From Begonia masoniana (Eukaryota > Streptophyta > Magnoliopsida > Cucurbitales > Begoniaceae), in assembly GCA_022432975.1 (NCBI GenBank), contig CM039509.1, forward strand, positions 22,785,432 to 22,849,431: DNA of 64,000 bases. Reading direction: 5' to 3'. The notes beneath the pieces are model-generated. The model was not told the DNA's origin and ran no database searches. It was given only the letters and a program-made list of their open reading frames with translations. The position numbers were made by a program, and so were the translations under genes. Positions 6,964 to 64,000 of the stretch are shown here, piece after piece (the stretch's first letter is position 1; each line of letters opens with the position of its first letter).

Positions 6964-8222
6964 TGACATGCCTCGGGTTACATTCAAAAGGAAAATTGGC
7001 AAAGTCTCAAACTTTATATCTTCGCTCTACTTATTACGTGTTTTTCTCTTGTAGGTATAATTCTTGAAAGGAATGCATATGGAGCACTTGGAGGAAGTCA
7101 CCAACTAGCCCGATGGGAATTTGTCATCCCGGGCCTTTATCTTTGTAATTTTTTTATTTTTGAACTTATTTGGCATACATTCACCTTTATTGTATGGATT
7201 ATATAATTGTATCATGCATTAGATTGTGTGGTTAGGGTTAGATGTATGTTGGTGGATTATGGGTTGAAGAAATTCAACTAATTATTTAAAGAAAAAATGC
7301 CTTCACAAGATCAAGCTCAAAGGAAGCCATGGCGCAAAGAAGAGCCTACATTTAAAAGTATGATTTTGCAGGTACAAGAGTTAGTGGCAACATGGATTGA
7401 TGATGTGGCAAGATTCCCTCCATTGATCCATTTGGGCATGACATTCATCTCTTCCCTAGGATGTGTCCTTGTTTGCCTTGATCTTAGCCATCCATCATTT
7501 TTCATTCAAGGGCCATCATTCATTCATCCTTATGGAAATCCTAATCCACCCTAGGATCTCTATAAAAGCATGGCATTGGTGAATGTTTTACAACTTTTGC
7601 CCAAATCAATACACTACTATTTCCCTAATATCCAAGGTGTTTCCTTTGGTGTTTTCCTTGGTTCTTTGAACCAAGTGCAGTAGCCCTCCATTATTAACTT
7701 AGCTTGGGTTGCTAAGTTAATTCTTACTCATTCACTCGCCTTCTCCATTGGGAGTTGGAGTTGAGGACGAAAATCCCGGCCTACGGTAGTTGTTTTTCCT
7801 ACGGAAAAATCGTTCACTCGAGAGCTTAAATCGTAAGATCGCTCTACGAGTCCGCCAAGGGTATTTCCTTTACTTTCTTGCCATTACATTTTCACACACA
7901 TCACCCTTTAATTTTCGGCCATCAAACTCACACACTCCACATTTATTTTATTGCATTTTTCTCTTCATTTTCATCTTGCATATCTTCACCATTTCACACA
8001 CCATCTCTTCATCTTTTCCTTATTTTTCTTTTATCTTTCTTACCCTCATTATCCACCATATATTCGGCCACTAGCGCACACACCACTCTCCTCATTTTTC
8101 TTTTGCATTTATTATTATATTTAGTCCATATTTTCGGCAATTTACACTACCACACAATCGAGCACTCTTCTTGAATATTTTGTGGGTTTGAACACAACCC
8201 TTTTCTAAGGGATATTGTATCA
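6964..8222 (+). repeat. 5' LTR of the gag-only element
   Basis: TG...CA termini, 1,259 bp. A TATA box (TATAAAAG, 7561-7568) sits in the middle. Upstream of it, an 85-codon ATG frame (7297-7554) occurs with an identical protein in the 3' LTR (15241-15498). Because the frame lies in U3, upstream of the TATA box, it is unlikely to be made from this promoter, so I do not call it a gene. T-rich and CAC-rich tracts follow the TATA box to the LTR end. Confidence 0.88.
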
Positions 8223-14942: not shown

Positions 14943-15338
14943 GATTATATAATTGCATCATGCATTAGATTGTGTGGTTAGGGTTAGATGTATGTTGGTG
15001 GATTATGGGTTGAAGAAATTCAACCAATTATTCAAATAAAAAAGGCCTTCACAAGATCAAGCCCAAAGGAATCCATGACCCAAAGAAGAGCCCACATTTA
15101 AAGGTATGATTTTGCAGGTACAAGAGTTAGTGGTAACATGGATTATATAATTGCATCATGCATTAGATTGTGTGGTTAGGGTTAGATGTATGTTGGTGGA
15201 TTATGGGTTGAAGAAATTCAACTAATTATTTAAAGAAAAAATGCCTTCACAAGATCAAGCTCAAAGGAAGCCATGGCGCAAAGAAGAGCCTACATTTAAA
15301 AGTATGATTTTGCAGGTACAAGAGTTAGTGGCAACATG
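14943..15338 (+). repeat. 198-bp tandem duplication confined to the 3' LTR
   Basis: Units start at 14943 and 15141 (both gattatataattgcatcatg...). The 5' LTR has only one unit, so the duplication arose after integration or in one strand-transfer product. The second unit carries the intact start of the 85-codon frame; the first unit has several substitutions. Confidence 0.8.
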
Positions 15339-16083
15339 GATTGATGATGTGGCAAGATTCCCTCCATTGATCCATTTGGGCATGACATTCATCTCTTCCC
15401 TAGGATGTGTCCTTGTTTGCCTTGATCTTAGCCATCCATCTTTTTTCATTCAAGGGCCATCATTCATTCATCCTTATGGAAATCCTAATCCACCCTAGGA
15501 TCTCTATAAAAGCATGACATTGGTGAATGTTTTACAATTTTTGCTCAAATCAATACACTACTATTTCCCTAATATCCAAGGTGTTTCCTTTGGTGTTTTC
15601 CTTGGTTCTTTGAACCAAGTGGAGTAACCCTCAATTATTAACTTAGCTTGGGTTGCTAAGTTAATTCTTACTGTAACGCCCCGAGTTTTCTGAACCCAGT
15701 TTGTTACTCGTAAACTCGGATATTACTAAAAAATAAACTTTGACCAAATTTAAAATCTTCGTTAAAATTTCAAAATTTGGACATTTGATAAAACATGAAA
15801 ACCTGCAGCGGAAAATCGTTTAAACAAAAATAAAATTAAACAAAAATCATGTTAAAATAATCGTTGGGAATGTTAAGAAAACAATCGGTTAAGGAGCAAA
15901 GATTTAACTCGTAAAAATACATTAAAGGTTGAAAAAGTCAAACTCATCGTTCGCTGAACAAAGTCAACTGGAAGGAACTGGCTTAGAAAATAGAAGGCCT
16001 TTCCTGATAACAAAAAAAAAATGACAAAGTTTCGGCTACATCATCCGGTCACAAAACGACAAAATACATCCTTCATCTACCAG

Positions 16084-16345
16084 TGACGTCAGCCGGATGA
16101 TTTCTTCATCCGATCGACTTTACTCTACATCCACTGGTGACGTCAGCTAGATGATTTCTTCATCCGATCGACTTTACTCTACATCCACCGGTGACGTCAG
16201 CCGGATGATTTCTTCATCCGATCGACCTTACTCTACATCCACCGGTGACGTCAGCCGGATGATTTCCTCATCCGATCGACTTTACTCTACATCCACCGGT
16301 GACGTCAGCCGGATGATTTCCTCATCCGATCGACTAAACGACAAT
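16084..16345. repeat. 54-bp tandem repeat with TGACGTCA in each unit
   Basis: Five perfect TGACGTCA palindromes lie exactly 54 bp apart at 16084, 16138, 16192, 16246 and 16300, each inside CCGGTGACGTCAGCCGGATG, followed by CATCCGATCGAC. The last unit runs into CTAAACGACAA (16334-16344). TGACGTCA is the classic high-affinity bZIP site, so a regulatory role is inferred. Confidence 0.9.
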
Positions 16346-16817
16346 TTCCAACCTATATCTTCCGATGGCTTCCACTGAAGATATCTTCCGATGGACAACA
16401 AAGTAACAACTCAATCTCTGCCGGTAGACTTCATCTACCGATAGAGAACAAAATCACATTTGGTCCACTCCATGGTTTACAATCACAACTCTAATCACAG
16501 AAAAGAGTTTACTCACTTCACTGAAACATTTAGAAATAATTCAAATCGTTGCATTTCTCAAAATCCAGCAAGTGCCATCGTCAAATCTCAGCAGAATACC
16601 ATTATCAGAAAAACTCAAAACATTTTCAAAACATTGAAACAATTACTGTCATGAGGGCTCAACCTATTCAAATCAAAACGTTGTCAACTTCACCTTTACT
16701 CCAACAGACACCAGTTAAACTGCCTCATCAAATACCAGGTCCGTGGCATAAGTGTGCTCCCCCAACCAGCCTATCCTTCAATGAACTCAGAAGGCTCACC
16801 TGCTGTAACTTCACCAC

Positions 16818-17303
16818 CTACATCACAAAACTCATCTATTAGCCTAATGCTAAGTAAGTAAAGTAGTAATGGACTGAAATGCTGAAACATAAATTCCTAA
16901 ACATGCAATTTCTACTTTCTCATCTCTGTTGCATTCACATACGTTCATAAGCTGATCTAATCCCTCGGTTCCCTTGGGAAGTGGATCAATTTTCTCAAGG
17001 TCATACATCCTTTACTCGATTAAGGGGCGGATTAGTTCCCTTAATAGCTGAACTGATCCCTCTGTTCCCTTGGGAGTGGGATCAATTCTCCCAATGTCAT
17101 ACATCCTCTACTCGATTAAGGGGCGGATTAGTTCCCTTAATAGTTTGTCTGTCACATACAGTTCATACTTCACTATTCTTACATGAAAATTCATTTTCGT
17201 AATCTTTCAAAAACATGATACGTGACATACAAAATCATTCTCAATATGCATAACCCTACTGTTTTGTGATGTAGGCCCGAAGGCACATGCATGCTTTACT
17301 TAC
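16818..17303 (-). other. Intron-like module in solo LTR 15672
   Basis: On the minus strand: donor CCAG/GTAAGT at 17303, GCC-TTCG-GGC hairpin, arm CCTACATCACAAAAC (from 17275), a duplicated ~105-bp segment, hairpin TTAGC-ATTAG-GCTAA (16839-16853), and acceptor GATGTAG at 16818. The acceptor-side GTTTTGTGATGTAGG is the exact complement of the donor-side arm. Confidence 0.6.
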
Positions 17304-18344
17304 CTGGTCTCCTGGAAATCGTTCGGTTTCAACTATTCTGGAAACCCTGCTCACCTATCGTCATAAGCAAAAATACCGATTAGATCACCACTAACCTTAT
17401 CCTAAATCATTCTGAAACCTAAGGGGCTCGTTTGAAATCTCTAATCATCATACACTCTCGGCTCAATACTAAAATCGAACTCAACTCACTCGCAGTATTA
17501 TCAAAATACGCGCATTACACTATCTCTGCTATCTAGCCACTAAAATCTCGAGAAATAAAATGGAAAACTCACTAGTTTGAGGAATGAGGATCGGAGAGGG
17601 AAATCGCCTGGAGCTCTGCTGTGCTTGAGCTGAATACCGAGAAGGAAAAATGAGGGAAACAGTGGCGGCTAAACCTCATTAAACCCTCCATTAAATACGT
17701 TATCCATTTATAAAATTGCTAATTACCCTTTTATCTTTACATAGTTATTAACTAACCTAATCACTTTTCTCCCTCAATTCTTCCATAAAATTAACACATT
17801 ATAATTGGCAATTAAATTTGATTTAATAGAGCCGGGTGCTACACTTACTCATTCCCTCGCCTTCTCCATTGGGAGTTAGAGTTGAGGACGAAAATCCCGG
17901 CCTACGGTGGTCGTTTTTCCTACGGGAAAATCGTTCACTCGAGAGCTTAAACCGTAAGATCGCTCTACGAGTCCGCCAAGGGTATTTCCTTTACTTTCTT
18001 GCCATCACATTTTCACACACATCACCCTTTAATTTTCGGCCATCAAACTTACACACTCCACGTTTATTTTATTGCATTTTTCTCTTCATTTTCATCTTGC
18101 ATATCTTCACCATTTCACACACCCTCTCTTCATCTTTTTCCTTATTTTTCTTTTATCTTTCTTACCCTCATTATCCACCATATATTCGGCCACTAGCACA
18201 CACACCACTCTCCTCATTTTTCTTTTGCATTTATTATCATATTTAATCCATATTTTCGGCTATTTACACTACCACACAACCGAGCACTCTTCTTGAATAT
18301 TTTGTGGGTTTGAACACAACCATTTTCTAAGAGATTTTGTGTCA

Positions 18345-25097: not shown

Positions 25098-25706
25098 CTA
25101 CACCATAGAACACGAAAAGTAAGCCTAATGCTTAGTAAGTTGGGAATAACGAATGCACATAACACACAATGCAACCCAATCCTAATACATGCAGTTTCTA
25201 ACTCTCAGTTGTGCTCGTTACATGTTCGTTGCATTAATCTTATCATAAGCTGTGTGGATCAAGTAGGCACACATCTCATAATTGTCTAAGACGACTACGC
25301 CTTGATCCAACCAAGTAAAATCGGTTAGCACACATCCCATAACTGTCTAGGATGGCCAAGTACGATTTGCCTTACCCACATCGATTGTAGAACCCTATGA
25401 CTGTCTAGGAGTTCATACTCACGATGTCTTAAATCTTTTAGCCAAACCGCTCTCTCGTAAAAATCCCTTCGGGGTGCTACACTCCAGCACTTATTCCCGA
25501 CAAGGTCAATTTACTTGAGACCAGTTCTTACAATTCTTATTATCTTATTACAATTCATACTCGCACAATTCACAATGCACAAAACTAAAACGTGATGCAT
25601 GCCAGAAGAATACGCAACACAATACAACGTGAAACAAGAAACCAACCGTTTACCCTACCGTTCCATGGTGTAGGCCTAAAGCAACAAAAAGAATTCCTCT
25701 ACTTAC
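25098..25706 (-). other. Intron-like module in solo LTR 24229
   Basis: Minus strand: donor TTAG/GTAAGT at 25706, pairing arm CCTACACCATGGAAC from 25674, repeated phrases (CCTATGACTGTCTAGGA type, 25250-25420), hairpin TAAGC-ATTAG-GCTTA (25120-25134), acceptor TATGGTGTAG at 25098. The donor-side stem-loop of other copies is weak here. Confidence 0.55.
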
Positions 25707-38258: not shown

Positions 38259-38826
38259 CTACACCAGAGAGTTCACCTATGAGTCTAAAACTCAGTAAGG
38301 ACATAATCAGAATGTAGTGATGCAAAATGCTATGCATTCAGTTTTTCAGAAATACGGTGACAGTACAGAGCATTAAGTTACAGTGGCAGTAGAATTAAGT
38401 GGAGCTTATAGGGGAACTGGCAAACAGTGGGGGAGGGGGAGGGTGCACTATCAGGCACATTCAGGGAAACAGTACAGTAAACAGTTCTGGGGCCAGTCCC
38501 CGTCTCGCACTTAACCTGGTACATTTCAGTCGGATTTTATCTTGTTTAGTTTCAAACAGTGTACAGAAAATATTTGCATGTCTTTCAGAGAAAACGTGTA
38601 TGCATGACATTCTCAGTGCCTGAACCTATAACAGAAGACGTCAGAAATAACAGGGCGTATTGTGAAGCAGAACACAGACAACTCAGAACATGAACTGAAC
38701 AGACAACTCAGAACACAAACTGAACAGAAGCTATAACATTTCTACCCGAAACTACCCAACAGAACAGGAACCCTAGTACCTCTGTGATGTAGGGCCTTAA
38801 GGGCCAACCTACGGTTATGAACTTAC
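38259..38826 (-). other. Intron-like module in solo LTR 36688
   Basis: Minus strand: donor ACAG/GTAAGT at 38826, GGCC...GGCC stem, arm CCTACATCACAGAG from 38793, hairpin TGAGT-TTTAG-ACTCA (38280-38294), acceptor CTGGTGTAG at 38259. The long-range pairing is imperfect here, with a two-base bulge and one mismatch. Confidence 0.55.
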
Positions 38827-39486
38827 CTGTTTACTGCGGTGTCAGATGCTCGAATGTCCCTGGAATGCTCGGATCTGTAGTATGCATGAAGAGGTATTAA
38901 ACAAGCTGCAAATGCTAACAAATAACTTGGAAGATTATGCAGTAAACTCCACTTCAGATTTGTAGATAACAACGAATGCGTTTTCATACAAAAACCGAGA
39001 GTTCTCTCCCAAATATCTTAACCTAAACTCCAGCAAAACACATAGTTTTTGCTTGTCCAATGTGTTAGCATTAGAAGATGTTTACCTTAGCGGAGGAGCA
39101 GGAAGGAAATCTGAGAAGATCGAAGTAACTTCGATATTTGTTTTGTCGACTGGAAGAGAGAATCTTGGGAGAAATACAGAGAAGGAAAAATGCATATGAA
39201 TGTTTACGTAGGAGGAAGGAGAATAGGTAGGTTCCTCAGCAAGTTATTGCCACTTGGCAATCATCCATTGGTTATCTCCCACCAACCTTAATTTCTTCCC
39301 AATTTACCCTTACATTGGCTTTTAACTAAGATTGACTTGTTTTGGTTAGTTGGTCATCAGATTGGTCCTCCCTTAAACATTCCATCATTCCAACCAAAAC
39401 ATACATTGTATTTAAATAATAGTAATCCCATTTATACAATTCGGGGAAACAATTACATGGCAAAAGGCCGGGTGTTACAGGGAGAT

Positions 39487-43080: not shown

Positions 43081-43948
43081 TGTAACACCCGAGAAATTTC
43101 GTTTTAAGAAATTGAGCTTTAAGTTTCAAATACTAAGTATTTTAAGCATAATAGAATTCTAAATTCGTAGAAATATTAAATTAAGTCCAAATAATCAACG
43201 GGAAGTTTCGTTAGAGCCCTAAGAATAGATAGGAATATTTGGAGGAATAAAGGAATTTTGGAGAAGTTAAATTAATAGACGGAATGAGGATTTAAGCTAA
43301 GGAAATATCAAAAGGGCATTTTGGTAAATTTTGAAGTCAAGTTTTTAATTAAAAAGGGATCTCTCTCTCTCTCCCTTTCCTCATTTCCTCCTCCACGCAC
43401 GCGAGCTCCCTTTTCTCTCTATTTTGGCGATTTCCTCTTTTCTCATCGCCATCTCCACAGCTCGTTCTCCCCTCCGTTTCCGGCGTTTTCTTACTCAAGT
43501 TTCCTCCCCAAATCGATCTCTTAGGTAAGCTCTATGTTTTGGTTAAGTTTATTTAGGGTTTGGAGTGATTTTCGAGTTAGGGTTTGTAAAGAAAAATTAG
43601 GGTTTTTGTTAGAAATAGTTAGGGTTGTTTAATTGTTACTCATTGATGACGTATTTATGGTTTTTGAAGTTATTGGAGTAGAGTGATAATGTTTGATGAT
43701 GTTAATGTGAGATCTAGGTTGTTGGAAAGGTGGTTGAAAGACATTAATGGAGTTTTGAAGCTTGTGAACACCAAGTGTTTGATGAAATGCCTAAAGGAAA
43801 AAGATTGGAGTGTATAGAAGGATTTGTCCTAGCAAGAGAAGTCGATTGTTTAGATTCGATGCTTGAAAATCGATATTAATGATGTGATGTTAAATGCTCT
43901 AGGTAACCAAAGCTCAACGGACGGTGCTCGGCATATTTAGGACGCTAG

Positions 43949-44480
43949 GTAAGTGAGCGTTAGACTTTCCGGCCACTAAGGCCCTACGTCATAACGATGT
44001 TGAATATGTTTATTGCGACGAGGTTAGTTAGTTACATAGGTCGATGGTAAGAAGGGTAGTTAAGTAGTGCCTTAGCGAAGTTTAGTGATCGTTCGATAGA
44101 TGTTTCTAAGTATGTTTCATCACGTGTCATGTTTTCTTAAAGTGCATATGAGAATGTTTTTATGAGATGTCAAAGTAATGAATGATTATGAAGTTCTGAC
44201 TGACGTATGTTTCTCACGGGTCTGACGGTAAGTTCTCACGGTTCTGACTGTATGTTTCCTATGGTCCTGACTGTATATTTCTCACGTTTCTGACTGTATG
44301 GTTCTCACGGGGCAAGATGTATGTTTCTCACGGGGCAAGACGTATGTTTCTCACGGGGCAAGGAAATGGTTTAATAAAATGAAATGAAACTGTTTTAAAA
44401 ATGTCATGTATATATGTTGTGTTATGTTTAGTACGCTCCTTACTAAGCATTAGGCTTAATGTAGTTATCGTATGATGTAG
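43949..44480 (+). other. Intron-like module in solo LTR 43081
   Basis: Donor CTAG/GTAAGT at 43949, GGCC-ACTAA-GGCC stem-loop, arm CCTACGTCATAACGA (43983-43997), tandem TCTCACGGG repeats, hairpin TAAGC-ATTAG-GCTTA (44444-44458), acceptor GATGTAG ending at 44480. The acceptor-side TCGTATGATGTAGG pairs with the arm with one G-U and one bulged A. Confidence 0.58.
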
Positions 44481-45217
44481 GTGACGAGAAAGAAGGTGAG
44501 GAACCACCTTATGATGATCAAGTGTAGCGGTCGATGGGCGGGGCTCGTGGTGGCGGCTTGTGTTTTGGCAAGGCGGAGCTACTCATGGTTGGAGGTTTTT
44601 GAGGGTCTTTAATGACGTTTTGAGTTAATAATAAATTGTATAGATTTTGTAAATGTTTAGATATGTTATTAGGATGTTTGGAAATTGTATGGATAACGTA
44701 AAATGTTTTGTGGATGTTTTTGATGTTTAAAAACAGGTAGGATTGTTAAACTTTTAAATGGAACCATGCGGTTCGTTTTTATGAAAAATCAATTTCGTTT
44801 TAAAGTTATTTGTGTTGGTTATGAGTTTTGGGTAAATTTAGTGTGAAAGTGTTATGTGAGAAGTAAGTGATGATTATGTGAAGAAAAAAAAAAGAGAATG
44901 AAGAGTTGATAGTGTTATGTGTTTATGGGTTAAAGGTGAGGGGTAGGACGTGTGAAGGAAGGAGGAAAACAAAGAAGAAAGAGGGGGCAGAGCGCAGTGG
45001 GCGCGCAGGGCGCGCCTGAATGTGCCTTCACGATCGATCGTGCTTGAGCCGCGATCGATCGTAATCGAAGTTTGATTTCAATCAGGAGACCCGAGAGGGC
45101 CCGATCGGTCGGGCTTAAGGCGCGATCGATCGTGAACAAGTTTTCGTTTGATCACGAGGCGAGCAGTCGCCTCTCTTGGCGAATCGCTGGGCACTCTCTG
45201 GAGAAATCCAGAGAGAG

Positions 45218-45329
45218 TGTGGCGCCCAGGCGCCACAATTGTGGCGCCCAGTCGCCACAAATTGTGGCGCCCAGTCGCCACAATTTGTGGCGCCCAGTCG
45301 CCACAAGTTGTGGCGACCAGGCGCCACCA
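45218..45329. repeat. Tandem GTGGCGCCCAGTCGCCAC hairpins
   Basis: About five 24-bp units, each a small foldback (GTGGCG...CGCCAC), joined by ACAATTTGT-like linkers that are themselves palindromic. The region is GC-rich within AT-rich DNA. Confidence 0.88.
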
Positions 45330-45559
45330 GTTCTGTATTAAAAAAAAAAATGTTTTATTTAAATTGTTTTCTTTATTAGTTAATTGTTTTAATTATTTAA
45401 GTTTATTGTTTTAGTAATTGTTTTAAATGGTTTACCAAACGAACTCCGATTTCTATTTCGATTTCGATTTTAATCAAGGTTTCCGCTTAAGTATAGTTAA
45501 AGTTAAAGAATGTTATAAAAAAAAAATGTGACATCACGGGTACGGGTCGCGACACAAGT

Positions 45560-47565: not shown

Positions 47566-49961
47566 ATGCGTAAAGAAAGAAACATTAATCTTCTCCCGCT
47601 TAATCTTGAGATTGAACGTATGTGTCGACAACATCATAAAGAGAGAAGAGAATTTATTCAACCAGCGCGTGCCATTATGGAGATAACGGGGAAGATAATA
47701 CTGAGAACCAGACCTTGCTGGATTATATTATACCTACTGTATCCGGAGTGCATTCAGCTATTCGGAAACCAGCCATCGCTACTAATTTTGAAATTAAGTC
47801 GGGCATCTTGCATATGATTCAACAATATCAGTTTAGTGGATTACCTTCTAAGGACCCCAAAGAACATATTGCAAATTTTTTGGAAGTATGCGACACTTTC
47901 AGATACCACAACGTGGGGGATGATGCTTTTAGGCTGCGTTTCTTTCCGTTCTCATTACGGGACCGTGCGAAGAGTTGGCTTAACTCTCTGCCAGCCAATT
48001 CTATTACTACATGGGAAGAATTATGCCAGAAGTTCCTTTCTAAATTTTTTTCCTTCGAGAAGACTGCTAAGCTCTGAAACAATATAATCAATTTCAGTCA
48101 ATTCGATGGGGAAACTCTATATGAGGCATGGACGAGATTCAAGGAGATGCTAAGAAAGTGTCCAAACCATGGCCTACCGATGTGGATGCATATTCAAACT
48201 TTCTATATGGGATTGTCAGCATCTACTAAAACTCTGGTAAATGCAGCTGCAGGTGGTGCTTTAATGAGAAAAACTGAAGAAGCTGCATATGATCTATTGG
48301 AGGAATTGTCACTTAATAATGACCAATGCCCTGTGGAAAGCACAATTATGAAGCGTACAACTAGTACCCCAGAGCTTGAAGCTATGAAAGCCTTAACACT
48401 ACAAGTTGCCTCATTGGCTAAACAGTTACAAGAATCTCATATGACGGCTAGTGTGGGGAAAGCGCCAATGGTTAATTGTCAATGGTGTCAGGGACCACAT
48501 CAAAGTGAAGAATGCCAAGTGGGAAATCCTATGTCGAATAAATCTGCAGAACAAGTTAACTACATGGGAAATTGTAATTGGCAAGCAAATCCTAACTCAA
48601 ATACTTATAATCCAGGGTGGCGACAACATCCTAATTTCTCATGAAGCAATTCCCAAAATGTTATGCCTATGCCTCACACATCGTAATCAGGTCCATCTCA
48701 ACAAGCTGAAAAGAAAAATGATCTCGAAGCAGCCCTTATGCAATTTATGACCGAAACCCATACAACGATGCAGAATCAATTGGCCCAAATTCGAAGTCTT
48801 GAGAATCAACTTGGCCAATTTTCTAGTATCATTAATGAAAGATCTCATGGTACACTACCTAACAATACTGAAGTAAATCCGAAAGAGTATTGTAATGAAA
48901 TTACAACTCAAAATGGAATAGTGATTGAGCCAGTGCAAACAGAGCCAAGTGTGCCTAAATTGGATAACGGGGGTTCAAGTGAAAATGAAGCTCAAAGGTC
49001 TCTACCATCTCATCCTTCGCCAATACAAGCAATTCCACCTCAAGTGCCGTTTCCACAAAGACTAAAGAATGTGAAGCTTGATAATCAGTTTTCTAAATCC
49101 CTTGATATCTTCAAAAAGCTTCACATCAACATTCCATTCGCCGAGGCCCTCGAGCAAATGCCTAAATATGCCAAATTTTTGAAAGATATTGTGTCTTATA
49201 AGCGTAAGATCGAAGACGGCAGTATGATTGCTTTGACGGAGGAATGCAGTGCTATTATTCAACAAAAGCTTCGACAAAAGTTGCAGGACCCAGGAAGTTT
49301 CACTATTCCATGTGAAATTGAGAAGACAATTTCTGAGCGGGCATTATGTGATTTGGGTGCTAGTATAAATTTAATGCCACTATCTATTTTTCAAAAACTT
49401 GGTCTTGGTGAAGCAAAGCCCACAAGTGTATTTCTACAGATGGTTGATCGCTCTATAAAACATTCGTAAGGGGTGATTGAAGATGTCCTTGTCAAAGTTG
49501 ACAAGTTTATTTTCCCCACTGATTTCTTGATTCTCGATATGGAGGAAGATAGTGGCATCCCAATAATATTAGGTCGACCATTCTTAGAAACAGGAGGAGC
49601 TGTAATTGATCTTAGAAAAGGGGAGCTCAAATTACAGGTACAAGATAAAGAAGTCACGTTCAAGGTGTATAAATCAATGGAGTTCCAAATACCTAGTGAG
49701 GACATATTTTGGGTGGAACTCCCTAACACTGTATCAAGGGAAGCTTCACGTCAACCAAGCGACTCTCTTGAGCTGAATGGGATGCAATACGTTGAAAATT
49801 TGGGGGAGTCGACATTACAGGTCATACCACCTATTAAGAAACCACCCGACTACAAAAAGCTTATGGCAAATGACAAGTTGGTAAATGGGCTACGATTGAC
49901 ACCATATTGGGACGATACAGTTGAAAATGCAAAGCCCATCATATATCTCGACCCAACATGA
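47566..49961 (+). pseudogene. Athila-like gag-protease frame with four nonsense codons
   Basis: The main frame runs from about 47670 to TGA 49959-49961. It carries Retrotrans_gag landmarks ([60 protein letters not shown]), a Cys/His cluster (CQWCQGPHQSEEC), long Gln-rich coils, and a protease region (ALCDLGASINLMPLSIFQKL; DSGIPIILGRPFLETGGAVI). The upstream piece from ATG 47566 is in another frame, so a frame change lies near 47680. In-frame stops are at 48075 (TGA), 48642 (TGA), 48684 (TAA) and 49467 (TAA). The product type is Gag plus aspartic protease; no polymerase follows. Confidence 0.85.
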
Positions 49962-53667: not shown

Positions 53668-53872
53668 TGTAACACCCGAGATTAAATTTAAAAGAATAAT
53701 AAAATATGTTGTTTTAAGTAATTGAGTTTTAATTAATTGGAATGTAAAGTAAATAAATTTGATTGAAATTAAGCCGAGGGTTAGGTTAAATTAATAACGA
53801 GATTTAACGAAATTCAAAATGGTCGAAAACACGGGAGGTTAAAACGGTAAATGAAGATTTAATTAATGGTTA

Positions 53873-54835: not shown

Positions 54836-55854
54836 GTAAGTAGAGGACGTTATGTTTTGCCTTCGGGTCTACACCACGGAACGGTAGGGAATTGTTGTTG
54901 GTTGATTTCTTTGCTTTGTTTGAATTGTTAGTTGGTTGCTTTACTTGGTTTGGTTGTATGGTGGCCCTGTATTGTTCTGGTTGTGTGGTTGACCTGTATT
55001 GTTTGATAGTTGTGTTGTTTTGTATTACGTAGTGTGGAACTGACATTCTTGGCTGTTGTTTGGTGTTTGAGTGTTGTGTTATTGTTTGGAGTTTGTTTGG
55101 GTGTTTGAGTTTTGAGTGTTGTGTGAGTAGCATGAAATGTATAAGAAAAGCACTAGAGAGTGAACGCCTCGTCGTTAAAGTGCAAGAGCACCAGAGGGTT
55201 TAACGTCTCGTCGTTAACGGGCTGAGAGTATGCACTACGGGAGTTGAACGCCCTCGTCGTTAAAGTGCAAGAGCGCCAGAGGGTTTAACGTCTCGTCGTT
55301 AAACGTGCTAGAGAGTATGCACTAGGGAGTTGAACGCCTCGTCGTTAAAGTCCAAGAGCACCAGAGGGTTTAACGTCTCGTCGTTAAGGTGCTAGAGAGT
55401 ATGCACTAGGGAGTTGAACGCCTCGTCGTTAAAGTGCAAGAGCACCAGAGGGTTTAACGTCTCGTCGTTAACGTGCTAGAGAGTATGCACTAGGGAGTTG
55501 AACGCCTCGTCGTTAAAGTGCAAGAGCACTAGAGGGTTTAACGTCTCGTCGTTAACGTGCATGAGTAAGAAAGCAGCAGAGTGAGTAGAATTGGCATGTG
55601 TGAGGGGGTTGTGCTGGTGTTTTTGAGTTGAGTTGTCGTGTTATGTTGCATGGGTTGGGATTGTAGTCGGTTAAAGAGTAAGGCATCCTTTTTGGGTGCG
55701 GGAAATTGTGTTGTGCTGTTGTGGGGTTGCGTTGTGTCGTTGTGTTGTTTGATTGTTTTGTTCAGTGTTGTGTGTAGCTTGTATTTTATCTAGTCGTATT
55801 TGTTAATCCCTATTTGCTAAGCGTAAGCTTACGTGTGTGTGTTCTATGGTGTAG
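54836..55854 (+). other. Intron-like module in LTR 53668
   Basis: Donor TTCAG/GTAAGT-like (GTAAGTAGAGG) at 54836, GCC-TTCG-GGT stem-loop (54859-54868), arm CTACACCACGGAAC (54869-54882), the 84-bp minisatellite, hairpin TAAGC-GTAA-GCTTA (55818-55831, a GNRA-type loop), acceptor TATGGTGTAG ending at 55854. Confidence 0.58.
55140..55565 (+). repeat. 84-bp minisatellite, about five copies
   Basis: GAGTTGAACGCC starts at 55241, 55327, 55411 and 55495 (spacing 84-86), with a partial unit before. Each unit has two CTCGTCGTTAA words, one after GAACGC and one after TTTAACGT. Confidence 0.9.
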
Positions 55855-56013: not shown

Positions 56014-58157
56014 TGTAACACCTGGTTTCAATATAAATCAAAATAAGTTATTAAACGGAGGTATATAATCTTATGGTTTAAAATTGAGTGAAATGTTGAT
56101 TAGGTTATTAAGTGACTAGGCAGGGGCAAGATGGTAATTGCGAATTTATATTGTGGATAACGTATTTAAGGGAAGTGTTAATGAGGTAGCCGCCACTGTT
56201 TCATTTCATTTCCTCTTCCACTCTCAGCTCCTCAGCTTAGCAGAGCGCGATAGGAGACCCTCTTCGATCCCTCCAGTGATTTCCTCAGAACTAGGTGAGT
56301 TTTGCTTCTATTTCTTGCTACATTGTAACTGTCGAGGGTTGATAAATGAAGTTTTGAGAATGCGGTATGTGAGTGCTAGTTTCGGTTTATGAGTTGAATC
56401 GGGAATGCACTACGATTAGGGCTTCCAAACTAATTTCCTTAGCTTTCTGGATAGCTAGAAGGAAGTTTGACGAGAGTTTAAATTAATGTTCGATTTGTGG
56501 AACTAGGTTTGAGCAAACTCCCGAGGGAGAGGTTTTAACAAGCTTCCCAGGAGACCAGGTAAGTGAAGTTTGCTTGTGCCTTCGGGCCTACATCACAAAA
56601 CGTTAGGATTATGATTACTTGTGTGAATCTGTATTCTATGCATCATGTTTTAAAACATACGAAAATGAATTTGAATGCATGATTGGCATGGTAAGGATTG
56701 AACATATTGAAACAGTCATGAGAATCAGTTTCACTGTTAAGGGAATTAATCCACCCCTTAATGAGACAGGGATGTATGTACTTTGGAAGAGCTGATCCAA
56801 CTTCCAATTTAACAGGGGGATCTGAACAGGAGAATCAGTTTCACTGTTAAGGGAATTAATCCACCCCTTAATGAGACATGGATGTATGTACTTTGGGAGA
56901 GTTGATCCAACTCCCAATTTCACATGGGGATCTGAACAGAAACGAAGCATGAGCAACTGAGTTGAGAAAGTAGAAATTGCATATTAGGAATTTATATTTC
57001 GTTGTTTCATTTCTTGTTGGCTTTACTTACTTAGCATTAGGCTAATAGATGAGTTTTGTGATGTAGGTGTTGAGGACACTGCAGGTGAGTTTCCTGAGTG
57101 CACAGATGATTGATGTGGTTGGAGGAGTACATCCATGTCTCGGCTTGGTAAACTGATGAGGCGGGTTAACTGGTGTCAGCAGTTGTTGAGGTTTAGTAGA
57201 TAACGATTTAGTCTAAGTATGTTGAGTTTTCATGACATTAGAAATTTTAGCATTTTGAATACGTTTTGAGATCTACTGATACTAGTAATCTGTTGACTTT
57301 TAAACGTTGATTTTTACTGGATTTGACTAATGCTATGGTTGAGTTGTTTCTGAATGGTTTTTGAGAAGCAAGCAAATTCCTTTCTGTAGATAGTGTTGTG
57401 TTTTATGTCTATCGGATGATGTCGAGTGTTTTAGTCATCCGGTGATGTCGAGTGTTTTGGCTCGTCGGATGATATAAGTGTTCTGTTTGTCGTCTAGTGA
57501 CCGGGCGATGCGCGTACTATTTGGTCGACTAGTGCTCGGATGAGGGAGATCATCCACCTGACGTCACCGGTGGATGTAGAGTAAAGTTTATCGGATGAAG
57601 GAGATCATCCGGCTGTCGTCACCGGTAGATGAAGGATGTATTTCGTCGTTTAGTGACCGGATGACAAATCTTATGTTTTGTCGTTTAGTGACCGGATGAC
57701 AAATCTTATGTGTTGTCGTTTAGTGACCGATGACAAATCCTTACGTTTGTCGTTTAGTGACCGGATGACAAATCTTATGTTTTGTCGTTTAGTGACCGGA
57801 TGACAAATCTTATGTTTTGTCGTTTAGTGACCGGTGGATGTCTTCAAATAGGCTTTCCATCCCCTTTTCGTTTGACTTTGTTCAGCGGACGATGAATTTG
57901 ACTTTGCAACCATTTAAAGTATTTTCACGAGTTAACCTTTGCTTCTTAACCGATTGTTTCTTAACGTTTCCCACGATTATTTCGACATGGTTTTGTTTAA
58001 TTTTATTTTTGTTTAAAACGATTTCCGCTGCAAGTTTTCATGTTTTATCAAATGTCCAAATTTTGAATTTGAACGAAGTTTAAATTTGGTCCACGTTTTT
58101 ATAGAAATATTCGGATTTATGAGTACAAACCGGGTTCAGTAACTCGGGGGCTTTACA
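56014..58157 (+). repeat. 5' LTR of the Tekay-type element
   Basis: 2,144 bp, TGTAACACCTGG...GGGGGCTTTACA. It has TATTTAAG at 56163-56170, the intron-like module at 56559-57066, a ~110-bp duplication (starts 56721 and 56831), one TGACGTCA (57559), and a ~40-bp repeat (about 57630-57840) of TTTGTCGTTTAGTGACCGG with ATGACAAATCTTATG linkers. In 1,174 bases comparable with the 3' LTR I count 9 substitutions and 2 one-base indels. Confidence 0.92.
56559..57066 (+). other. Intron-like module in the Tekay 5' LTR (type example)
   Basis: Donor ACCAG/GTAAGT at 56559; GCC-TTCG-GGC stem-loop 56578-56587; arm CCTACATCACAAAAC 56587-56601; hairpin TTAGC-ATTAG-GCTAA 57031-57045, whose right arm plus one base is the branch-point-like CTAAT; acceptor TGATGTAG ending 57066. 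GTTTTGTGATGTAGG (57053-57067) is the exact complement of the arm. It starts about 390 bases downstream of the TATTTAAG box, where a 5'-leader intron would be expected. Splicing itself is inferred. Confidence 0.62.
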
Positions 58158-58160
58158 GTA

Positions 58161-58173
58161 TGGTATCAGAGAC
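58161..58173 (+). promoter_or_regulatory. Primer-binding site, initiator tRNA-Met type
   Basis: TGGTATCAGAGAC lies three bases after the LTR end, with one or two differences from the usual initiator-Met complement. Confidence 0.85.
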
Positions 58174-58312
58174 ATTCAGTTAAACCGTTCAAAAGATTAC
58201 TCATCAATGCACGGTCGTTGCATGGAAGTACTGCAACAACTGTAAGTGTTACATTACCCTTAGTTGATAGATACTTAAGAGTGTGACTAACCCTGTACAG
58301 GAATTTAGTATA

Positions 58313-61300
58313 ATGGCCAGACGCCCAGGGAGACCTAGAGTGCCTAGAGAAGTGCCAAATGTGAGAGGCGAGGAGGAGCCTAGTGTGATTAGGCAGCTGA
58401 CAGAATTGATGTGTCAGCAGACTGATATAGTGCGTCAACAGTCTGATCAATTAGGAGTGTTGTTGAACCGAGAAGCACAAGGAAGTGCCAACTCGGGTTC
58501 TAGCAGTGAACATTCTGGAGATAGATTCCGGAGACTAAGACCAACCACGTTTGATGGTCAGTCATCTGATCCTGTTGTTGCTGAAGGATGGCTTAGAAAG
58601 ATCGAAAGTATGTTTAGGTGTGCCAACATAGGAGAAGAAGACAAGGTCACGCTGGCAACCTTTCATCTAGCTGGTGAAGCTCAACTCTGGTGGGAAACAA
58701 TAGAGACCACCACAGATGTTTTGTCAATGCCTTGGTCACAATTCAAGGATATTTTCTATGGAAAATATTTCAACAGCACTGTCCAAACCGCAAAGAAGTT
58801 GGAATTTCTGAATTTGAAGCAGACAGGGTCGGTGGCAGAGTATAGTAGGCAATTTGAGTCCTTGTCCAGGTTTGCTGGACATTTTGCTCATAAGGACGAG
58901 GATAAGGTGTTCAAATTCGTGGATGGACTGAAGCCAGAGATTTATCGAGGAGTCAAATTCTGTGGCATTAAAGGTTTAACGTTCAGTGAAGTTGTGTCCA
59001 CTGCTCTGGAAGTGGAAGAAGCTGAAGGGAAGTGTGCTAAACCAAAGGAGGTCTCACAAAGGTTTAACCAGCCACACCAGCAAAGGGGAACGAAGAGGCC
59101 AAGTGAAGGCCAAAATAGCCAAGGATCAGGGGGAAAGGTGCAGAACGTCAGGAAATTTCCCCAATGTCCTAAGTGTCTGAAGTACCACCCGGGAGAATGC
59201 AGACTGGGCTTGGGAAAGTGTTTCAACTGTGAGGAGGTTGGACACACTGTCAAGGAGTGCTCGAAGCCTAGAATCACCAGGTGCTATAATTGTAACAAAG
59301 TCGGCCATATTAGCAGAGACTGTCCAGTTCCTAAGAATGGCCCTGCTATGATCAAACCAAGAATATTCTCCATGACGGAGTCGGGTGAAGAACAGCCTGC
59401 TGTAGTGTCAGGTACTATACTGATCAACTCTGTGCCTGCTTTTACTTTGATAGATTCTGGTGCAACGCATTCATTTATAGCATCTGCATTTGCTGTTAAG
59501 TTAGATGTGCCGTTTACCCCTTCCCTGCATGTGTTTAATGTTGCATTGCCTTCTGGTGAACGCATGCACTCTGACCAAGTGATGCTTGACAGCGATGTGC
59601 TATTAGGAAGCGTGAGTCTGCCTGCTGATCTCATTATTATGGATATAATGGGATTTAACGTAATCCTAGGAATGGATTGGTTGTTTAAGCATTATGCCAC
59701 AATAGATTGTAGGACTGGAATTGTTAGTTTTCAATCCCCTGGAGGTTTAAACCATACTTTCCAAGCTCTGAAGAAGAGTAAGGAAATGACTGTAATGACT
59801 TCTGTCAATTGTAGACCCTCCCCATGCAAAGAGTATTTGTGCTTTTTGGCCAGTGTTTTAGACACACAACTAGTAGAAAAATCAAGTCCCAAGAATGTCT
59901 TAGTTGTCCAGGACTTCCCTGAAGTATTCCTAGATGACCTTCCTGGCTTGCCACCAGATAGGGAAATTGAATTTGTGGTAGATGTTTACCCCGGTGCCGA
60001 GCCTGTGTCCAAAAATCCATATAGACTAGCACCAACAGAACTTAAAGAATTGAAGAAACAGTTAGAGGATTTGTTGGAGAAGGGGTTCATACGCCCTAGC
60101 TTTTCACCTTGGGGAGCACCTGTTCTTTTTGTCAAAAAGAAAGATGGATCAATGCGTATGTGCATTGATTATAGAGAATTGAATAAGTTAACTGTCAAAA
60201 ACAAATACCCTTTGCCGAGGATTGATGACTTATTTGACCAACTCAGGGGTGCAAGGGTTTTCTCTAAGATTGACCTTAGGTCCGGTTATTACCAGTTGAA
60301 GGTTAAATCTGAAGATATCCCAAAGACTGCCTTTCGCACAAGATATGGACATTATGAGTTTTTGGTTATGTCTTTTGGTTTGACAAACGCACCAGCAGCC
60401 TTCATGGATCTCATGAATAGGGTGTTTCACGAGTATTTGGACAAGTTTGTTATTGTATTCATAGATGACATCCTAATCTATTCTAGCACTAAGGATGAGC
60501 ATGCAAAACATTTAAGTTTAGTGTTAGAAGTATTGAGAAGGCACCAACTTTATGCCAAATTTTCTAAGTGTGAGTTCTGGTTGGACCAAGTTCACTTTTT
60601 AGGACATGTCATCTCTGGGGACGGCATATCTGTTGATCCAGCAAAAGTTCAAGCAGTTAAGGAGTGGCCCCAACCGAAGAGTGCTACTGATATTCGAAGT
60701 TTTCTTGGACTAGCAGGGTATTATAGGAAATTCATCGAGGGATTTTCAAAGATTGCCACACCCCTTACTAGGTTAACAAGGAAAAATGTGAAGTACATAT
60801 GGACTGATGAATGTGAACATAGTTTCATAACCTTGAAACAGAAACTGACCAATGCTCCAATTCTGACCTTCCTGTCGATAATGGTAAGTTTAGCATTTAC
60901 TGTTATGCTTCCAAGATTGGTCTTGGATGTGTGTTAATGCAAGATGGTAAAGTAATAGCTTATGCCTCTAGACAGTTGAAAACGCATGAGAAGAACTACC
61001 CTACCCATGACTTAGAATTAGCTGCAGTTGTATTTGCACTTAAGATTTGGAGGCATTACTTGTATGGACAATCCTGTGAGATATTCTCAGATCATAAAAG
61101 CCTGAAGTATATCTTCACATAGAAGGAATTAAACATGAGGCAACGTCGATGGTTGGAATTTGTCAAAGACTATGATTTTGAGATCAAGTACCACCCTGGC
61201 AAGGCGTATGTAGTGGCAGATGCTTTGAGTAGAGTGACTCCTTTAGTTTCTGCTTTGACTCTAGACATACCGATAGCTTTAGAGACGGAATTCCAAAGAT

Positions 61301-62791
61301 TTAACTTGGAAGCTGTGCCAAGTGTGTCAGCCATGCTTTCGGCCATGTCTTTGAGGCCAACTATTTTGGAGAAAATAAAGGAGGTCCAAATGAATGACAC
61401 TGAGTGTAATAAGTATAGGTTGTGCATAGATTCCACTGATAAGTCGGATTTCAACTGCTCAGCCACGGAATTCTCAAGTTTCGAAATAGATGGTTGGTTC
61501 CGGCCGATACTGAGCTTAGGAAGGAGATCCTATCTGAGGCACATTCCTCCAGATTCTCAGTTCACCCTGGAAGTACAAAGATGTAAAGAAACCTTAAGCA
61601 ACATTATTGGTGGCCAGGTATGAAGAGAAGTGTGGCGGAGTATGTGGAGTCATGTCTGGTCCTGCCAGCAAGTCAAGGCTGAACATCAAAGACCCTCAGG
61701 GACATTGCAACCTTTACCAGTTCCTGAATGGAAATGGGAACAAATAACAATGGATTTTGTCGTTGGACTACCTAGGACAGCAAAGGGACATGATGCAATC
61801 TGGGTTATAGTTGACCGTTTAACCAAATCTGCTCATTTTCTGCCAATTAGATAACTTACTCAATGGATCAGCTTGCTGAATTGTACATGCAAGAGATTGT
61901 CAGATTGCATGGAGTTCCAAGTTCAATAGTTTCAGACCGAGACTCCAGATTTACATCTAAGTTTTGGAAAAGTCTGCACAAGGCTATGGGAACACAGCTT
62001 AATTTTAGCACAGCCTTCCACCCTCAAACGGATGGACAATCCGAGAGGACTATTCAGACCTTAGAAGATATGCTCCGAGCATGCGTATTGGATTTTGAAG
62101 GATCTTGGAGTAGATATTTACCATTGGTCGAGTTCTCTTACAATAACAGTTTTCAAGCAACAATAGGAATGGCACCGTATGAAGCCTTATATGGACGAAA
62201 ATGCAGATCTCCTTTGTACTGGGATGAAGTTGGTGAAGCACAATTGCTTGGTCCTAATATTGTGCAACAAACTGTGGAGAAGGTTGCCCTCATCCGACAG
62301 AGAATTTTGACAGCTCAAAGCCGCCAGAAGAGTTATGCTAATAAAAGACGAAGAGAATTAGAGTTTGAAGTAGGTGATGAAGTTTTCCTTAAAGTATCAC
62401 CATTTAAAGGAGTTGTCAGATTCGGTAAGAAAGGCAAGTTAAACCCCAGATTTATTGGACCGTTCACTAGTCTGAAAAGAGTTGGGAGAGCAGCCTATCT
62501 GTTGCAGCTACCAGCTTCTATGGAAGGAATACATGACGTATTCCATGTTTCTATGTTGAAAAAAGTGCATAGGGATCCCAACCAAATCATGGAACAGCAA
62601 GACCTCGAAATTTGTCCTACCCTTGCCTATGAAGAGAAACCAGTAAAGATCTTGGATTACGCAGTGAAGGTATTACGCAACAAAGAGGTCCCACTAGTGA
62701 AAGTCTATGGCACAACCAGAATGTAGAGGAGACGACCTGGGAGCGTCAGCAGGACATGATGGACCAACATCCAGAATTATTCAGGTATTGA
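58313..62791 (+). pseudogene. Tekay-type gag-pol with several frameshifts
   Basis: From ATG 58313 ([16 protein letters not shown]). Gag core: [35 protein letters not shown]. Two zinc knuckles: [14 protein letters not shown] and [14 protein letters not shown]. Protease [59 protein letters not shown]. RNase H from 60950. Integrase [38 protein letters not shown]-terminal GPFTSLKRVGRAAYLLQLP and DVFHVSMLKK, then a chromodomain-like LRNKEVPLVKV. Breaks: frame change near 60870; TAG 61120-61122; frame changes near 61500, 61640-61670 and 61855; frame change near 62705 inside the chromodomain, after which the frame runs to TGA 62789-62791. Gag, protease and RT are uninterrupted up to 60870. Confidence 0.9.
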
Positions 62792-62826: not shown

Positions 62827-64000
62827 TGTAACACCTGGTTTCAATATAAATCAAAATAAGTTATTAAACAGAGGTATATAATCTTATGGTTTAAAATTGA
62901 GTGAAATGTTGATTAGGTTATTAAGTGACTAGGCAGGGGCAAGATGGTAATTGCGAATTTATATTGTGGATAACGTATTTAAGGGAAGTGTTAATGAGGT
63001 AGCCGCCACTGTTTCATTTCATTTCCTCTTCCACTCTCAGCTCCTCAGCTTAGCAGAGCGCGATAGGAGACCCTCTTCGATCCCTCCAGCGATTTCCTCA
63101 GAACTAGGTGAGTTTGCTTCTATTTCTTGCTACATTGTAACTGTCGAGGGTTGATAAATGAAGTTTTGAGAATGCGGTATGTGAGTGCTAGTTTCGGTTT
63201 ATGAGTTGAATCGGAATGCACTACGATTAGGGCTTCCAAACTAATTTCCTTAGCTTTCTGGATAGCTAGAAGGAAGTTTGACGAGAGTTTAAATTAATGT
63301 TCGATTTGTGGAACTAGGTTTGAGCAAACTCCAGAGGAAGAGGTTTTAACAAGCTTCCCAGGAGACCAGGTAAGTGAAGTTTGCTTGTGCCTTCGGGCCT
63401 ACATCACAAAACGTTAGGATTATGATTACTTGTGTGAATCTGTATTCTATGCATCATGTTTTAAAACATACGAAAATGAATTTGAATGCATGATTGGCAT
63501 TGTAAGGATTGAACATATTGAAACAGTCATGAGAATCAGTTTCACTGTTAAGGGAATTAATCCACCCCTTAATGAGACAGGGATGTATGTACTTTGGAAG
63601 AGCTGATCCAACTTCCAATTTAACAGGGGGATCTGAACAGGAGAATCAGTTTCACTGTTAAGGGAATTAATCCACCCCTTAATGAGACAGGGATGTATGT
63701 ACTTTGGGAGAGTTGATCCAACTCCCAATTTCACAGGGGGATCTGAACAGAAACGAAGCATGAGCAACTGAGTTGAGAAAGTAGAAATTGCATATTAGGA
63801 ATTTATATTTCGTTGTTTCATTTCTTGTTGGCTTTACTTACTTAGCATTAGGCTAATAGATGAGTTTTGTGATGTAGGTATTGAGGACACTGCAGGTGAG
63901 TTTCCTGAGTGCACAGATGATTGATGTGGTTGGAGGAGTACATCCATGTCTCGGCTTGGTAAACTGATGAGGTGGGTTACCTGGTGTCAGCAGTTGTTGA
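62827..64000 (+). repeat. 3' LTR of the Tekay-type element, partial
   Basis: The first 1,174 bases match 56014 onwards at about 99% by eye. It includes the whole intron-like module (donor 63370, hairpin 63842-63856, acceptor 63877) and TATTTAAG at 62976-62983. It is cut by the window end. Confidence 0.92.

Follow-up and report, generated by a model that had tools for sequence, protein, structure and literature searches.

The 64-kb window analysed here (the whole stretch of 64,000 nucleotides from Begonia masoniana), which occupies C8:22785432-22849431 and is plant-like judging by its elements, contains a long terminal repeat (LTR) retrotransposon, element A, on its plus strand. The 5′ LTR of this element (56014..58157, +) has the ends TGTAACACC ... 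CTTTACA and is 98.98% identical, over 1176 aligned bases, to positions 62827-64000, indicating a recent insertion; the 3′ LTR begins at 62827 (+) and continues past the window end. A site resembling a primer-binding site (PBS), TGGTATCAGAGA, is found at 58161 (+) and has one mismatch to the plant tRNA-Met primer site. The gag-pol ORFs follow at 58283-62726, with the gag ATG at 58313. A TATA-like stretch within the 5′ LTR, ACGTATTTAAG (56160..56170, +), may be a promoter; 10 of its 11 positions are identical in LTR F, a second LTR of the window. Protein domains were found in the order expected of Ty3-type elements, with gag, RVP_2 and RVT_1 in the first ORF and SH3_Tf2-1 downstream, together with an integrase core match (rve, E 0.045) that falls under its cut-off and a Chromo match (15.4 bits, E 0.018) that lies under the curated cut-off, in a region split between frames. 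Element A is of Ty3 type and likely has a chromodomain remnant. The narrower label of the original prediction, 'Tekay-type', is likely and, with a chromodomain score this low, weakly tested.

Inside the LTR of element A lies the proposed intron (56559..57066, +), which runs from an AG/GTAAGT donor to a TAG/GT acceptor. Along it are found a small hairpin, GCC-UUCG-GGC (56578..56587, +), arm 1 (CCTACATCACAAAAC, 56587..56601, +), a CTTAC box that is a possible branch point (57026..57030, +), the acceptor hairpin TTAGC-ATTAG-GCTAA (57031..57045, +) and arm 2, which spans the acceptor TAG/G (57053..57067, +). Branch points are expected ~15-40 nt before the acceptor. The same module occurs in the 3′ LTR of element A (63370..63877, +) and in five further LTRs of the window. 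Module B (54836..55854, +) lies in an LTR that begins at 53668 and is interrupted by element A at 56014; module C (43949..44480, +) in LTR 43081-45554, which by eye looks solo from the CAAGT repeat on its flanks; and module D (38259..38826, minus strand) in an LTR that begins at 39479 on the same strand. The LTR of module E (25098..25706, minus; LTR 26706-24229) is probably also solo, with no PBS at its end and flanks, TCACC/TTACC, that differ. Module F (16818..17303, minus) sits in a solo LTR (17843-15672) whose empty site is present in a twin repeat near 7723-7728; the related repeats 7194-8222 and 15138-18344 form an empty/filled site pair, the latter carrying solo LTR F. The LTRs hosting modules B to F begin with TGTAACACC or TGTAGCACC. 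The middle of the intron has tandem repeats that differ by family (56720-56939 in A, 55150-55560 in B, 44200-44372 in C and 16950-17143 in F).

The original prediction had placed all seven copies correctly: each starts with GTAAGT after AG and ends with TAG followed by GT, arm 1 begins 28-34 nt past the donor in the window copies, and both the arm complementary to the acceptor region and the 5-bp-stem hairpin are present in all six insertions. It had further described six independent LTRs, too diverged to align end to end. The seven copies do represent six LTR insertions, but since A (56559) and F (17303) fall within a single LTR group (67% identity over the whole length, 69% in the longest BLAST piece), these amount to about five independent lineages. 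To the parts then described, we add the small hairpin that precedes arm 1, the CTTAC box, an exon-like block upstream and an intron-like stretch between the PBS and gag.

All seven occurrences of AGGTAAGT in the 64-kb window are module donors, compared with a chance mean of 1.75. In the six insertions arm 1 pairs with the 3′-terminal ~14 nt of the intron and the first exonic G; in a hand alignment of the arms, from which one bulged base of module C was left out, 87 of 90 cells are paired and 6 of the 15 pairs show a double compensatory change, whilst for the 5-bp hairpin these values are 30/30 cells and two of five pairs. An unadjusted MAFFT alignment had 93.0% of cells paired versus 84.5% in shuffles, with none of 500 shuffles as high, and the summed arm energy of the true partners was equalled by 4 of 720 permutations, including the identity and the A/F swap. 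A strict descriptor (12/13 pairs plus hairpin) returned six matches in the window, all of them modules (C was missed), against three in total over 20 shuffled windows; relaxed to 11/13 pairs, it returned nine, of which seven were modules, where each shuffle gave 0-5. Omitting the hairpin raised this to 19 matches versus 5-15 per shuffle, so that the arms alone are weak evidence. When the whole window was compared with Rfam at the gathering threshold, the module matched no family, self-splicing introns and hammerhead ribozymes included; the sole match was to snoR71 (plant snoRNA R71; 48069-48175, minus, 50.1 bits), which overlaps the start of a plus-strand ORF at 48147-48644.

The 795-Mb genome (308 contigs) contains 24,174 exact matches (12,166 + 12,008) to the hairpin/acceptor motif and none to its reversed control. 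In a blind sample of 20 pieces of 10 kb (200 kb), a descriptor gave 12 matches versus 0-2 in five shuffles, of which 10 were accepted, the two without the hairpin consensus being judged chance and left out; at a stricter level there were seven matches and none in five shuffles. All 10 accepted modules have AG/GTAAGT, although the descriptor permitted GTGAG and a final C. Additionally, 29 loci were chosen for diverse motif sequences from 100 matches listed, all on one contig (C1), and 22 of these (17/20 + 5/9) show the same order of parts. The seven that were dropped (3/20 + 4/9) had no AGGTAAGT 250-1500 nt upstream, with just ~700-780 nt of upstream sequence inspected for the 4/9; where several donors were eligible, that with the best arm was chosen. 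Over a set of 38 modules, the donor and arm 1 (its CTAC word) are 28-36 nt apart in 37, the exception, L056, having CTTAC at the CTAC position, and intron length ranges from 486 to 1021 nt. The small hairpin before arm 1 reads GGCC-CTTAA-GGCC in other families (by eye, L035 has GGTC/GACC and L046 has GGCT/AGCC) and is 67% paired in the register tested over the 38 modules. Neither two module patterns nor an RT protein were found in a collection of viral contigs, nor was one pattern in prokaryote genome contigs; given what these collections hold, the result has no bearing on other plants.

For 24 pairs in the 38 modules, tested against 500 null alignments simulated along the same tree, the structure as a whole had a covariation of 0.352 (null maximum 0.219-0.242) and the arm helix one of 0.336 (null maximum 0.261-0.315), a value that none of the 500 nulls attained; cells here count copies, not events. 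As 16 of the 38 modules were found through pairing, the 22 motif-picked loci were tested alone, and arm covariation was again high (0.327 vs 0.193; 0/500 as high). The acceptor hairpin by itself scored 0.310, equalled by 16/500 and 2/500 nulls, and pairs changed on both sides numbered 12, not above the mean of 12.3 in the freer null. Among the first 100 matches listed, hairpin pair 2, which is free in the pattern, is A-T in 41, T-A in 35, G-C in 22, G-U in one and mismatched in one; pair 5 is C-G in 78, T-A in 15, T-G in one and mismatched in six. An all-against-all scan of the 38 sequences was weak, with 5:52-3:44 the only one of the proposed pairs near the top (E 0.17) and a top pair (E 0.017) that is not a base pair; the covariation argument is carried by the set tests. 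The word CCTAC facing GTAG/G is nearly invariant (36-38/38 per pair). A CTTAC or CTTAT box is present in 36/38 modules, 22 of which were selected for CTTAC; in the other 16 it is present in 14, B and L012 being without the A. The CTTAC box of element A could pair with the donor GTAAG, to which it is complementary, and might so form a pseudoknot with the arm helix. This donor-box pairing was set aside as evidence: all four variant boxes among the 38 retain it through wobble pairs, which are too few changes to count.

LTRs A and F, with 67% identity overall, are identical at 8/8 positions of the donor, 26/27 of the small hairpin and arm 1, and 46/46 from the CTTAC box through hairpin and arm 2 to the acceptor, compared with 29/59 in the block ending at the donor. 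Judged from these two LTRs, the exon-like block adjoining the module is the part free to change. Conservation extends to other stretches, chiefly the terminal ~250 nt of the LTR (77-92%), and the module is therefore one of several conserved LTR islands. Between more distant copies the 46-nt acceptor part is identical at 22 positions (E vs B) or 35 (E vs C). A and F do not share a conserved donor for the putative first exon (5/10 identical), and elsewhere this donor was judged by eye.

The contexts AG/GTAAGT and TAG/GT, present in 7/7 window copies, are those of U2-type donors and acceptors. This consensus is also stated for plants (PMC3735527). Upstream of the donor, exon-like block 2 of element A (56507..56558, +) extends from an acceptor-like CTAG to the GTAAGT donor; an acceptor-like YAG lies 45-58 nt before the donor in 32/35 modules versus 14% by chance, and across the block border mean T content falls from 0.43 to 0.19 whilst purine content rises from 0.44 to 0.61. 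Plant introns are described as U-richer than exons (PMC3735527), and T content is 0.34 in the intron body compared with 0.19 and 0.23 in the exon-like blocks. The block after the acceptor is purine-rich (0.61); in element A, exon-like block 3 starts at 57067..57084 (+) and is followed by a second donor-like site, CAG/GTGAG. AG/GT[GA]AG occurs within the first 40 nt of this exon in 26/38 modules versus 0.15% of random 40-nt intron-body stretches, at +15 (19 modules), +18 (six) or +27 (one), always a multiple of three; this site (57067-57090 and equivalents) could be a third donor, a dual-use site or an exonic enhancer. A short third intron is proposed between the PBS and the gag ATG (58242..58300, +; donor CT/GTAAGT). 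A GTAAGT is found 76-86 nt past the PBS start at 11/18 PBS-like sites, or 11/14 after this type of LTR end, judged by eye, and the four such elements inspected in detail (A, L059, L060 and L062) have an AG shortly upstream of the gag ATG; L061 has no PBS within 2.6 kb. By their sequence, these elements look built for splicing.

Equilibrium folding predicted the arm helix in 20/38 introns, and some families would thus need a protein or co-transcriptional folding. With 60-nt flanks the helix was near certain in A, E and F and formed in part in C, and B and D had none; without flanks it reached 0.79 in D. The idea of the whole intron as a structured RNA was dropped, the introns being not consistently more folded than shuffles (z -3.1 to +1.2). 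The intron-less junction of family A occurred zero times in the genome at ≤1 mismatch, versus 6,927 intact LTR-intron donors; the spliced junction of the short third intron of element A likewise occurred zero times in the genome at ≤3 mismatches. Reporter introns inserted in such elements are reported to be spliced out in new copies (PMC12786077). Three readings follow: the sites may be idle, spliced RNA may never act as a template, or something may shield the replicated RNA from splicing; put differently, the replicated RNA would retain the intron, or the intron is never spliced. The original prediction is borne out in part: a leader intron with paired ends agrees with these data and gains from the upstream exon-like block and the intron-like stretch before gag, but its splicing would be putative, with a zero count of intron-less family A junctions.

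The signals of the LTR intron, their order, spacing, covariation and copy number can be taken as established at the level of sequence. As an explanation we favour, with a probability of roughly 0.55, a leader intron whose fold would hide its own acceptor and leave part of the RNA unspliced. Transcription would start from a promoter near the LTR start, and the leader would consist of a putative first exon, an intron, an exon of ~45-58 nt, an intron of ~500-1000 nt and a purine-rich exon, with a further ~60-nt intron between the PBS and gag. Near the start of the long intron stand the small hairpin and the arm, the latter pairing with the final ~14 nt, acceptor AG included, plus the next G, and a second conserved hairpin lies between the CTTAC box and arm 2. 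Were the spliceosome to use these sites, the helix would hide the acceptor and make splicing slow or conditional; the unspliced share of the RNA would then exit the nucleus and serve as genome, the spliced share being the Gag-Pol mRNA. Recruitment of U1 and protection of the long RNA are further possible roles of the strong donor. That RNA pairing brings the intron ends together had been proposed in the original prediction; covariation speaks for the pairing, and the bringing together is one of two effects it might have, of which we think acceptor hiding the more likely. Hiding is favoured because the helix contains the acceptor AG/G itself, because CCTAC opposite GTAG/G is near-invariant though splicing alone would not require it, and because intron-less junctions are lacking for family A while reporter introns do get removed, according to PMC12786077.

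The main rival holds that the intron is spliced and that the pairing helps, the helix setting donor and acceptor ~30 nt apart and so defining a long intron. We consider this unlikely: it would fit the near-constant distance between arm 1 and the donor over introns of such varied length, and has a precedent in zebrafish (PMC9198270), yet the helix swallows the acceptor AG/G needed by the second splicing step, and efficient splicing predicts intron-less copies, none of which was found for family A, unless spliced RNA is never reverse transcribed. Slightly less probable again is that nothing is spliced, the fold being a signal of the genomic RNA for packaging, dimerisation or the export of RNA that stays unspliced, and the motifs that resemble splice sites serving otherwise, for example through U1 holding off early polyadenylation. 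The lack of intron-less junctions for both the LTR intron of family A and the third intron of A agrees with such a role, as do the structured export elements of mouse IAP and MusD (PMC12786077); the consensus donor and acceptor, however, resemble splicing signals when taken with the purine-rich blocks, the U-rich stretch that precedes exon 2 and the donor before gag. Very improbable, finally, is an inverted repeat acting at the DNA level (a small-transposon remnant or protein-binding sites) that lies near splice-like words, or chance. Inverted repeats covary in DNA too, and the intron middle has family-specific tandem repeats in several copies, but here two separate helices vary together at a fixed distance from donor and acceptor, LTRs that can barely be aligned share one order of parts, and no target duplication was seen by eye beside the arms.

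Retroviral leaders with a splice donor in R occur, for example, in HTLV and foamy viruses, and they resemble the proposed arrangement in having a donor in an LTR-derived leader and in that unspliced RNA must be kept; here donor and acceptor would both lie in the LTR. Plant LTR elements are generally without introns, according to a 2025 review (PMC12786077). Splicing is described for Ogre, EVADE, BARE1, CRR and Bagy2 env (PMC3735527; PMC12786077), where, as proposed here, part of the transcripts is spliced and mRNA exists beside full-length RNA, and the BARE1 intron is likewise U-rich. The introns of those elements, however, are located in or between coding regions, whereas the proposed intron is wholly in the LTR, before the PBS at 58161 and the gag ATG at 58313, and is doubled (both LTRs), with a covarying fold over the acceptor. 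In zebrafish, introns that bear complementary repeats at their two ends splice without U2AF2 (PMC9198270) and share the pairing of intron start with intron end; those are dinucleotide repeats in genes, compared with a conserved, covarying module over the acceptor AG. Hairpin-masked splice sites such as that of MAPT exon 10 (PMC9198270) are alike in placing RNA structure on a splice site, there a local hairpin in a host gene and here a predicted long-range acceptor helix across 500-1000 nt, in a retroelement. Among the papers listed by a literature search, judged by title and abstract start and with most subscription papers outside its scope, neither an intron inside a plant LTR nor such a module was found. 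Benachenhou and co-authors were unable to model the LTRs of plant Metaviridae owing to their length variation (PMC3601003), and for this reason the module may have been overlooked.

How retrotransposon RNA is shared between translation and replication has been posed as a question (PMC3735527). The structure described here bears on it: compact and covarying, it sits on the acceptor of a proposed intron that both LTRs carry, and it recurs thousands of times across several families. Tentatively, and with somewhat less than even confidence, we suggest that the self-masking LTR intron would be an RNA switch, deciding for each transcript between spliced mRNA and replicable unspliced genome in a major plant retrotransposon lineage; with >24,000 copies, it may rank among the most abundant conserved RNA structures of the genome. 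If true, the annotation of LTRs would change, given that plant LTR elements are held to be generally intron-free in the review (PMC12786077). Furthermore, genes in the neighbourhood could acquire promoters, exons and splice sites from solo LTRs that have an exon-intron structure.
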